From Akkermansiaceae bacterium (GTDB taxonomy: Bacteria > Verrucomicrobiota > Verrucomicrobiia > Verrucomicrobiales > Akkermansiaceae): a DNA stretch of 35,453 nt. Each line of letters begins with the position of its first letter. Within the stretch, counting starts at the first letter, position 1. The notes below the pieces were generated by a model that was given only the letters and a program-made list of their open reading frames with translations, ran no database searches and was not told the DNA's origin. The position numbers were made by a program, and so were the translations under genes. The DNA lies in contig JANXMQ010000071.1 in the NCBI GenBank assembly GCA_025354565.1, forward strand, positions 1-35,453, given 5' to 3'. Below are positions 22,855-24,852 of this stretch, piece by piece.

Positions 22855-23979
22855 TCACCAGTGGGTGATGCTGCGGAATTCTTGGATGCGGGCAGCGAGT
22901 TCTTCCAGGGTGAGGGATTCGAGGCGGCGGGTGGAAAATGCCTCGCAGGTGAAGGAGGCGAGGATGGAGCCGTGAATGACCGCCTGACGGATGACGGGGG
23001 CGGCGTAGGGCGGCGGGCCTTGGGCGGCGAGGTAGCCGGCCATGCCACCGAGGAAGGTATCGCCCGCGCCGGTAGGATCGGCGACGGCAGCGAGGGGGAA
23101 GGCGGAGCAGCGGAAGAGGTTGGGAGAGGTTGATGGTTGAGAGTTGATGGTTGATGGTGGCGATTCTGAAGATGGGGAGGAAGAATGAATGAATGAAGGA
23201 AGGCCGGGATGAATCCCGCGCTCCGCACTCGAGAAGAGCATGGCGCCGAACTCGCCGAGTTTGATGACCACTTGGCGGGGGCCTTTGGCGAGGAGGAGGT
23301 GGCCGGCTTGGACGAGGTTGGAAGTACCGGCGAGGTCGCGGGCTTCGCCTTCGTTGAGGACGAAGAGATCGAGGTGGGGGAGGACTTCGTGGAGGCGCTC
23401 GTTGGCGATTTCGATCCAGAGGTCCATGGTATCGGCGATGACGAAGCGGGGGGGAGAATCCAGAGATGAGATTCCAGAGTCCAGAGAAGAGGGAGCCGAT
23501 GAGGAAGAGGATGAATGAAGGCCGGGATGAATCCTGCGGTCCGGGGCGATGCCGCATTGGGCGAGCATTTCTAGCTGATTGTCTGGGGACATGTTCGCGA
23601 GGACGACGATGGGGGCGGTGGCGATGGCGGTGGGGACCTTGACCTGCCAATTTTCCAGCACGTTGAGGCCGACGCGGTGGGTGGTGCGCTCGTTCATGTT
23701 GTCGTGATACTCGCCGGACCAAGTGAAGGATTCGTTGGCGGAGCGCTCGACACCGGTTAGGGAGACGCCATGGGCTTCTAGCATGTCGAGGTGCTGGCTG
23801 GGGAAATCATGACCGATGATGCCGATGAGGGCGACAGGGCTGGTGAAAAACGAGGCGGCGAGGGCAGCGTAGGCGGCGGAGCCACCCAAGAGGTTCTGGG
23901 CCTCGGCCTCTGGGGTTTTTACGTGGTCGATGGCGATGGTGCCGCCGATGGCGATGCTGGCGTGGGATGTGGTGGTCAT
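22855..23979 (-). CDS. PfkB-family carbohydrate/nucleoside kinase with two in-frame insertions
   Basis: A 374-residue ribokinase-fold kinase. LLGGSAAYAALAASFF is the N-terminal substrate-binding signature. DPTGAGDTFLGGMAG is the second PfkB signature with the catalytic Asp and anion hole. The natural fold is interrupted twice by Ser/Pro-rich stretches. One lies at about 148-178, after APDRR and before RFVIADTMDLW. The other lies at about 252-292, after LFSSAERG and before AFPLAAVADPTGAGD. Both start IHPGL and are encoded by a repeated palindrome. Without them the length would be about 305, normal for PfkB. Substrate unknown; it could be a sugar or nucleoside kinase. It is the last gene of the accB-accC-thiE run. 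Confidence 0.85.
   Translation of the reverse strand: MTTTSHASIAIGGTIAIDHVKTPEAEAQNLLGGSAAYAALAASFFTSPVALIGIIGHDFPSQHLDMLEAHGVSLTGVERSANESFTWSGEYHDNMNERTTHRVGLNVLENWQVKVPTAIATAPIVVLANMSPDNQLEMLAQCGIAPDRRIHPGLHSSSSSSAPSSLDSGISSLDSPPRFVIADTMDLWIEIANERLHEVLPHLDLFVLNEGEARDLAGTSNLVQAGHLLLAKGPRQVVIKLGEFGAMLFSSAERGIHPGLPSFIHSSSPSSESPPSTINSQPSTSPNLFRCSAFPLAAVADPTGAGDTFLGGMAGYLAAQGPPPYAAPVIRQAVIHGSILASFTCEAFSTRRLESLTLEELAARIQEFRSITHW
23118..23225. repeat. In-frame insertion repeat within the PfkB-type gene, copy 1
   Basis: The segment contains, in order on the plus strand, a TTGATGG/TTGAGAG heptad stretch (23128-23160), a GAATGAATGAATG run and AGGCCGGGATGAATCCCGCG ending in CTCCG. GGGAT and ATCCC form a hairpin around GA. 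The whole is read through in frame on the minus strand as IHPGLPSFIHSSS and a Ser/Pro-rich continuation. Confidence 0.85.
23462..23545. repeat. In-frame insertion repeat within the PfkB-type gene, copy 2
   Basis: It has GATGAATGAAGGCCGGGATG followed by AATCCTGCGGTCC, a slightly diverged form of the same palindrome. Next to it is CCAGAGTCCAGAGAAG (23473-23488), a 16-base string that recurs upstream of trmB at 26919-26935. It is translated in frame as IHPGLHSSSSSS and onwards. Confidence 0.8.
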
Positions 23980-24007
23980 GGGGATAGAGGAGGCCGTTGG
24001 GTGGGGC

Positions 24008-24041
24008 TTGATTGACGATTGTTGATTGACGATTGTTGATT
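24008..24041. repeat. 14-bp direct repeat between thiE and the kinase gene
   Basis: TTGATTGACGATTG occurs twice head to tail with a partial third copy. It shares the TTGAT wording of the heptad arrays nearby. It lies about 35-60 bases upstream of the PfkB-type gene start and could be a binding site or only low-complexity sequence. Confidence 0.7.
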
Positions 24042-24081
24042 TGGGAGAAGATGAAATCAGGGCGATTGGAAATGGAGCGGT

Positions 24082-24852
24082 TTAGGATTTCGGGATGGGG
24101 ATATTGGATTTTACAAAGCGGGTGGCGGATTCGACATCGGGGGCTTGGAGGAGGGCGGAAACGATGACGACGCGGCGGGCCCCGGCGGCGAGGACTTGGG
24201 GCAAGGTGTCCGGGGTGATGCCGCCGATGCAGAAGGCGGGGATGTGTGCGCCGACGGCGTTTTCCATCGTGGCGATTTCCGCTAGGCCGATAGCGGGACG
24301 TCCGGCTTTGGTGGGGGTGGGGAAAAGAGGGCCGAAGCCGATGTAGTCGAAGCCCTCTAACAAGGCGGCGCGGGCTTGGGCGAGGGAGTGGGTGGAGCGG
24401 CCGATGACGAAGCTAGGGCGGGGGGAGATCGGGGATTGGGGATCGGGGAATGGGGATGGGAATGAAGATGAAGACTTGGACGATGGGGGGGATGAATGAA
24501 TGAATGAATGAAGGCCGGAATGAATTCCGCGCTCCAACAGTTGCTTCGCTGCTGCCAGGGAGCCGTCGGCTTGGCCGAGGTGGACGCCGGCGGCTCCGAT
24601 TTCTGCGGCGAGGGCGGGGTGGTCGTTGAGGATGAACGGGATGCCGGCGGCGCGGCAGAGCGGGATGAGTTTTTCCGCGACGCGGCGGATGGTGGCGAGG
24701 TCGTGGTTTTTCGCACGGAGTTGGAGGATGTCGGCACCACCAGCGAGGAGGGCGGCGGTGACTTCCATCGCGCGGGATTCCGGCGTGTAGCCGAGGTCGA
24801 GGATGCAGTAGAGCTGAGGGTTGAGAGTTGAGAGTTGAGAGTTGATGGGCAT
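24082..24852 (-). CDS. thiE: Thiamine phosphate synthase with an in-frame insertion
   Basis: It joins HMP-pyrophosphate and HET-phosphate into thiamine phosphate in the cytosol. The ThiE motifs are in order: ILQLRAKN (phosphate and substrate binding), FILNDHPALA, GVHLGQADGS, IGRSTHS, DYIGFGPLFPTPTKAG, and CIGGITPDTLPQVLAAGARRVVIVSAL split over the C-terminal barrel strands. At about 106-145 a Ser/Pro/Phe-rich stretch (IHSGLHSFIHSSPPSS and onwards) separates the helix after GQADGS from IGRSTHS. ThiE proteins normally have only a short loop there. The total, 256, is about 40 above usual. The first residues, MPINSQLSTLNPQL, are encoded by the ATCAACT/CTCAACC repeat that covers the start. No TPP riboswitch is seen. 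Confidence 0.92.
   Translation of the reverse strand: MPINSQLSTLNPQLYCILDLGYTPESRAMEVTAALLAGGADILQLRAKNHDLATIRRVAEKLIPLCRAAGIPFILNDHPALAAEIGAAGVHLGQADGSLAAAKQLLERGIHSGLHSFIHSSPPSSKSSSSFPSPFPDPQSPISPRPSFVIGRSTHSLAQARAALLEGFDYIGFGPLFPTPTKAGRPAIGLAEIATMENAVGAHIPAFCIGGITPDTLPQVLAAGARRVVIVSALLQAPDVESATRFVKSNIPIPKS
24425..24535. repeat. In-frame insertion repeat within thiE, copy 3
   Basis: On the plus strand a G-rich low-complexity run (GGGATTGGGGATCGGGGAAT) is followed by GATGAATGAATGAATGAATG and AGGCCGGAATGAATTCCGCG ending CTCC. GGAAT and ATTCC pair around GA. This is the same module as in the kinase gene, with two compensating changes that keep the palindrome. It is read in frame on the minus strand. 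Confidence 0.85.

Follow-up and report, generated by a model that had tools for sequence, protein, structure and literature searches.

Palindromes that are translated in frame within protein-coding genes are already known, and they appear mainly as scattered cases, among them the Rickettsia palindromic elements (RPEs) and intragenic repetitive extragenic palindromes (REPs). REPs of the GTAG and CGTC superfamilies are described inside many genes, with Rickettsia conorii and Opitutus terrae reaching the largest numbers; REPs also lie behind coding regions and flank the genes of REP-associated tyrosine transposases (RAYTs), and in-frame copies in genes of a Verrucomicrobium have already been published (PMC3733652). 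RPEs are inserted in frame in conserved genes (PMC2229807). Here we describe a comparable element in a 35,453-nucleotide contig of an Akkermansiaceae bacterium (JANXMQ010000071.1, hereafter the window). It is a 41-base module that occurs three times within two neighbouring enzyme genes, encoding a PfkB-type carbohydrate kinase and the thiamine phosphate synthase ThiE. The module is probably a REP, the palindrome that ends the members of a family of RAYT-type single-strand transposons in this genus, and is present here as non-autonomous copies that the host proteins tolerate as passengers.

The draft genome to which the window belongs as contig C217 is referred to as G000; it comprises 5.13 Mb in 257 contigs and is 95% complete. 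The module has the consensus GGASC-GCGRRATTCATYYCG-GC-YTTCATTCATTC, a palindrome joined to an ATTC run, and stands twice in the kinase gene and once in thiE, in every case in frame and on the sense strand. A first-pass annotation of the window had reported the same palindromic module at three sites of these two genes, and coordinates, pattern and model matches agree in confirming it. A 25-base pattern with up to three mismatches matches the window three times, against none in 100 shuffles, and the whole genome four times, with none for the reversed-pattern control. These four copies are also the four best matches of R1, a covariance model built from 22 copies (E < 3e-9; the window copies score 53–56 bits). 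Three of the four are packed into 1,351 bp (probability by chance roughly 8e-7), a tight clustering that suggests local copying. The annotation was also right that the thiE palindrome is compensated (GGAAT/ATTCC), and the ThiE gene of a sister genome, G013, holds a further compensated form, GGACT/AGTCC. The low-complexity extensions differ as it described, with another heptad type at each site (Table 1). Its common peptide formula, IH(P/S)GL(H/P)S(F/S), holds in so far as the three window copies share one frame, yet every sense frame of each copy is open, and elsewhere some long frames read the palindrome differently (WSAGFIPP). Over four copies, 12 of 12 sense frames are open as opposed to 1 of 12 antisense frames. 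Because the sense strand is free of stops in every frame, any insert that adds a whole number of codons would simply be translated.

Do these segments belong to the enzymes? Matches to the kinase and ThiE were found in 67 and 66, respectively, of the 73 genomes of the genus, and the 30 best-scoring loci per gene, our own included, were aligned. The ThiE loop measures exactly 10 residues in 24 of 30 sequences and is longer in G000 (48), G013 (43), G001 (26), G072 and G024 (21 each) and G067 (17). Site 1 of the kinase spans 8–16 residues in 21 of 30 and 20–47 in the other nine (39 in G000). Site 2 spans 5–12 residues in 21 of the 28 readable rows (those of G074 and G082 were unreadable), 14–15 in G024, G002 and G075, 24 in G089, 30 in G003, 39 in G000 and 92 in G085. 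Since the loops are short in most orthologues read, the comparison of sequences supports a repeat rather than native sequence. Conserved peptide segments, which would have spoken against an inserted repeat, are not seen at these places within the genus; distant phyla were compared as solved structures.

The class of DNA in the filled loops was judged by eye, leaving G088 and G075 unclassified. The present palindrome occupies both kinase sites and ThiE in G000, ThiE in G013 and, shortened, ThiE in G072. A different palindrome, GGCGTCTCGCC, stands in the ThiE loop of G001 and G013, and heptad-like arrays fill loops in G003, G089 and G085 (site 2), G024 and G067. The same loops were thus filled more than once, by unrelated repeats. 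In the very close pair G001/G013, ThiE differs by one module of the present palindrome family. In the kinase tree the nearest relatives of G000 are G036 and G072 (modest supports of 0.74 and 0.69), and as both are without kinase inserts, those of G000 are probably recent.

Structure predictions and solved homologues support a location in loops that is compatible with conserved enzymes. The AlphaFold2 model of ThiE (mean pLDDT 85.6) has blocks of 51–61 at residues 111–140, between a helix (99–117) and a strand (149–154). In the kinase model (mean 78.3), values below 50 are found at 151–156, 158–172 and 255–283, the last segment being flanked by predicted strands at 245–250 and 287–291. The best solved matches of both enzymes have short turns at these places. 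Heptads are translated, too, in the N-terminus assigned to ThiE by the gene call (PINSQLSTLNPQL). That the module targets surface loops, as had been proposed, stands as far as the location in loops is concerned; targeting is indistinguishable from random insertion followed by selection, and sequence alone cannot separate the two.

Table 1. Features of the window and in-frame RAYT domains elsewhere in the same genome (G000); positions are those of the window unless a contig is given.
Feature	Position	Strand	Remarks
PfkB-type carbohydrate kinase, 374 aa, two inserts	22855..23979	-	PF00294 (E 8e-21); best solved match 3kd6
ThiE (thiamine phosphate synthase), 256 aa, one insert	24082..24852	-	PF02581 (TMP-TENI, E 3.3e-49); best solved match 1g4t/2tps
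REP-type module, kinase site 2 (GCGGAGCGCGGGATTCATCCCGGCCTTCCTTCATTCATTCA)	23186..23226	-	model R1 E 6.0e-10
REP-type module, kinase site 1 (CCGGACCGCAGGATTCATCCCGGCCTTCATTCATCCTCTTC)	23504..23544	-	R1 E 2.8e-9; one broken stem pair (A-C)
REP-type module in thiE (TTGGAGCGCGGAATTCATTCCGGCCTTCATTCATTCATTCA)	24497..24537	-	R1 E 5.4e-10; compensated stem
Whole insert, kinase site 2, ~residues 252-286	23122..23226, edges approximate	-	module + ATTC run + TTCCTCC + CCATCAA-type heptads
Whole insert, kinase site 1, ~residues 145-178	23446..23547, edges approximate	-	module + CTCTGGA-type heptads
Whole insert, ThiE, ~residues 106-146	24415..24537, edges approximate	-	module + GATCGGGG-type heptads
Second REP-like inverted repeat, 3' of kinase gene	22718..22796	.	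matches surroundings of RAYT-like ORF C220:4779-5447 (L217), 96.9% over 32 bp
Heptad array, thiE-kinase spacer	24008..24041	.	
Inverted heptad arrays around thiE start codon	24810..24897	.	
LeuRS with in-frame RAYT insert, ~220 aa	G000:C233:36442-39657 (L228:16442-19657, L283)		translated palindromes SVGVSPTS ... KLVGETPT at bounds
RAYT-like domain in frame, AlaRS-like ORF	G000:C211:24029 (L068)		bounded by 26-bp inverted repeat
RAYT-like domain in frame, IspG-like ORF	G000:C121:16212 (L067)		

The module is a member of a larger family. R1 gives 18 matches in its own genome at E<=0.024 and 47 at E<=10 (150 of 3,623 first-look candidates were scored), so that copies exist beyond the two enzyme genes, as expected of the repeat that the first-pass annotation had postulated. 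Matches at E<=0.05 occur in 32 of the 73 genus genomes, own included, and a sample of the order has matches at E<=0.001 in 2 of 189 genomes, our own and one from another genus of the family; both searches used stricter filters than the own-genome search and lose weak matches. The module pattern is present in 15 named records, 14 from Akkermansia or Akkermansiaceae and one from Burkholderiaceae. Over 60 distinct copies, 97.3% of the cells in the stem are paired and 39 cells are changed on both sides, each value reached in 0 of 500 shuffles; the covariation score is 0.352 against 0.175 (again 0 of 500), and sliding the partners lowers the pairing measures. As three of the five measures exceed every one of the shuffles, this is a short palindrome with a conserved, covarying stem. 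Copies are oriented by the TTCA centre and the tag, which is mostly GGAG or GGAC and in a few cases GGAT or GGAA. Neither the CGTC tag nor the absence of a transposase association that defines the CGTC superfamily is found.

Placement was assessed for 69 elements, namely the 30 best of the 47 listed from our genome and 39 chosen sister matches, with a simple gene finder. Ten lie inside genes in sense orientation and two in antisense, 43 follow a 5' gene on the same strand and 10 one on the opposite strand, and four have no neighbour in view. Among the 53 intergenic copies for which a 5' neighbour is in view, 43 thus point the same way as that gene, and 34 of these lie no more than 60 nt from its stop codon; a binomial p value for this bias is optimistic, as the genomes are related and the copies partly chosen. 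The two antisense matches (C13, C6) may be due to chance, and two of the ten sense copies (G025:C106, G072:C30) are probably start-codon miscalls. Copies in UvrA-like genes (in G001, in G013 and, at a second place, in G088) stand beside conserved residues with no clear added length and were not counted as proven insertions. One copy called intergenic (G088:C100:18771) is nevertheless read through by a 667-codon frame. Inverted pairs were recognised by eye in our genome on C53, C213 and C211. Other instances from this genome include a palindrome in an 835-codon frame, seemingly in a linker of DNA polymerase I (GSAEFIPPE; C174:22366, L082), an inverted pair around a putative PIN-domain toxin and its antitoxin (C24:17073-17880, L080), and a UvrA-like protein of 1931 residues with several SVGVSPTS and heptad-coded segments (C43, L224:8397-14189). 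The names DNA polymerase I, PIN toxin and antitoxin, like ureG, alanyl-tRNA synthetase (AlaRS), IspG and HsdR below, were assigned by eye.

What connects the palindrome to a transposase is a locus in genome G025 (C19), where a perfect 24-bp inverted pair of it, GGACCGCGAAATTTATTTCGCCCG, bounds an open reading frame (ORF) with the PNHVH and YIRSNP motifs of a RAYT. A hidden Markov model of RAYTs in which one row was a mis-framed fragment of this protein still recovered the true ORF (E 2.8e-54). The leader from the left copy to the ATG, CATTCATTCATCATCCACCC, carries a CATTCATTCAT tail like the tails in the window. In the orthologous spacer of G000 (C213), two inverted palindromes some ten bases apart stand directly behind the same stop codon, with flanks 79% and 75% identical and a ureG-like gene upstream. 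This pair of observations argues that the window modules are REP-type relatives of RAYT ends.

The anatomy resembles that of the GTAG superfamily with its REPs, REPINs and RAYTs: a short palindrome, inverted pairs, a position just 3' of stop codons, a flanked Y1 (HUH) transposase gene and occasional in-frame genic copies, for which flexible linkers and loops have been suggested as tolerated sites, as here (PMC3733652, PMC8266576). Our element has inverted pairs in its own genome, is mainly intergenic and 3' of coding regions and flanks a RAYT at one locus. It differs from GTAG REPs in the mostly GGAG/GGAC tag, in the ATTC or heptad tail and in the three copies within two neighbouring enzymes. 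Of the "independent, modular, protein-tolerated repeat system" first proposed, the repeat and its tolerance therefore stand, while full independence is not supported, given the REP/RAYT anatomy (at one locus) and the published in-frame REPs.

How might such modules arise? We propose that a RAYT would copy these palindromes via a folded single strand, mostly to positions immediately downstream of stop codons but at times into coding sequence. Selection would spare only those insertions that fall in tolerant loops remote from the active site, leaving the protein with a disordered Ser/Pro-rich loop, and template switching or slippage may lengthen or swap the ATTC and heptad runs on the palindrome. 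We infer mobility, local copying and neutrality from the present copies; we regard the element as a tolerated passenger and claim no benefit for the host.

Several observations weigh against this reading. The RAYT association is that of the single G025 locus, which leaves the window's genome with no identified matching transposase, and R1, run over a further 58 loci that contain Y1 (nine belong to our genome), gave no match at E<=0.05. Among the nine Y1 loci of our genome, a search for a module-adjacent RAYT returned only two weak two-mismatch matches, neither at a transposase end; the list of RAYTs is incomplete, since the assembly is 95% complete and a sample yielded a further RAYT-like ORF missed by the Pfam search. 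A GTAG or GTGG-like unpaired tag beside the stem is absent. RNA folding of the three window copies is not better than that of shuffles (z -1.00, -1.15 and -0.02). Two of the five stem measures do not exceed the shuffles (double-change pairs 61/500, further pair types 439/500), and the test is partly circular, because its copies are related and were found by a model that favours stems. Finally, near-identical strains of which one has an empty and the other a filled site did not turn up, and the ends given here are approximate.

An element of the RPE kind, of independent origin and spread by an enzyme other than a RAYT, is an explanation we consider unlikely. It shares the in-frame insertion in conserved protein genes, with palindromes translated in frame (PMC2229807, compared by description), and would agree with the lack of a matching RAYT in the window's genome. 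RPEs are 105–146 bp long and the accessible part of that source names no transposase, whereas here a 41-nt core is linked to a RAYT by the palindromes bounding it in G025 and the REP pair at the orthologous site of G000.

The bias towards sense orientation behind stop codons, with 34 copies within 60 nt, and the conservation of the stem by compensation could also be read as a functional RNA hairpin, a 3'-end stabiliser or terminator recruited behind stops and only accidentally found inside genes. The stem is, however, followed by no T run and folds no better than shuffles; 41 of the 73 genus genomes are without a match at E<=0.05 (the filters lose weak matches), three copies lie within ORFs, and the palindrome bounds a transposase gene in G025. 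We judge this quite improbable. Less credence still goes to plain low-complexity growth, in which slippage in naturally disordered loops would have produced a palindrome by coincidence: each insert of the window contains heptad or ATTC runs, heptad-like inserts fill the same loops in other species, and of the 36 arrays in 432 kb of our genome whose period is 7, 14, 21 or 28, 13 lie inside called genes, but the stems are compensated, the window copies reach the bit scores given above, and the same palindrome occurs between genes and at RAYT ends. Pseudogenes or assembly artefacts, which a draft in 257 contigs might invite, are hardly credible in view of the Pfam matches to PfkB and TMP-TENI, the many invariant alignment columns (DPTGAGD and GRSTH among them) and the filling of the same loops in several species.

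A parallel for the REP origin of the modules comes from RAYTs that are themselves carried in frame. Our genome has nine Y1_Tnp matches, and three of these lie in frame within host ORFs, one in leucyl-tRNA synthetase (LeuRS) and one each in an AlaRS-like and an IspG-like ORF. Such hosts are usually essential genes. Our LeuRS, identified by Pfam and a solved structure, contains positions 45–120 of the 121 of the Y1_Tnp profile; residues 365 and 373 of the solved LeuRS 1h3n flank the place that corresponds to residues 400 and 629 of ours, and no second LeuRS is found among the matches listed for this genome. LeuRS matches occur in all 73 genus genomes. A RAYT is present in 17 of the 30 loci read, with three of the 17 cut before, or lacking, the right anchor; eight loci are empty, G001 holds a REP pair only and G023 holds another insert. 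No line was obtained for the remaining three, of which G089 and G035 appear filled by match coverage. All 14 inserts read between both anchors have the HUH and Y..NP catalytic tyrosine motifs of RAYTs. Between G070 and G030 the host is 98% and the insert 46% identical (G030 ends at a contig edge), so that different RAYT lineages came to occupy one site. The LeuRS and AlaRS-like inserts are, by eye, bounded by other palindromes, and this evidence thus comes from other palindrome families than that of the window, a further point against the link proposed for the module.

It is conceivable, if somewhat short of probable, that the RAYTs of this genus are intein-like passengers that are not spliced: stop-free, translated within essential proteins and of several lineages that refill one loop (in LeuRS after VV and before NSG), with the REP modules of the kinase and ThiE as their small non-autonomous products. 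The empty loop, the REP pair and the full transposase domain at one LeuRS position form a natural series within one genus for studying the entry of mobile DNA into proteins and the origin of REPs, and they open to experiment the question of whether an essential enzyme can be expressed with a transposase as one of its domains.

TIRYTs and TIRtrons likewise combine a Y1 transposase with longer, partly self-complementary flanking inverted repeats, but they are described as repeat-flanked genes, whereas some of the present domains lie in frame within host genes (PMC3733652). The intragenic GTAG REPs of Opitutus terrae, from the same phylum, also lie within genes, both uvrA genes among them; they belong to another palindrome family, and the available text mentions no in-frame transposase (PMC3733652). 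In-frame RAYTs were not found in the literature, in a search that covered few subscription journals. A few overlong Y1 proteins were discarded as gene fusions or annotation errors in one study (PMC6006769), so that in-frame RAYTs may have been overlooked. What looks new here is the GGAG/GGAC tag, the ATTC or heptad tail, the reuse of loops by unrelated repeats and the in-frame transposase domains, carried within usually essential genes of the same genome, unlike in GTAG REP systems.

Further RAYT-like domains were noticed in frame in an IspG-like ORF of G011 and in HsdR-like (type I restriction) ORFs of G063, G062 and G075 (L265, L270, L271), these three seemingly sharing one insertion place. 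In the window itself, the Rfam matches are limited to one tRNA and one group II intron, the latter at 3427-3669 and adjoining a reverse transcriptase ORF recognised by eye at 1809-3497. A tandem array at 5114-5299 consists of 4.4 copies of a 42-bp unit.

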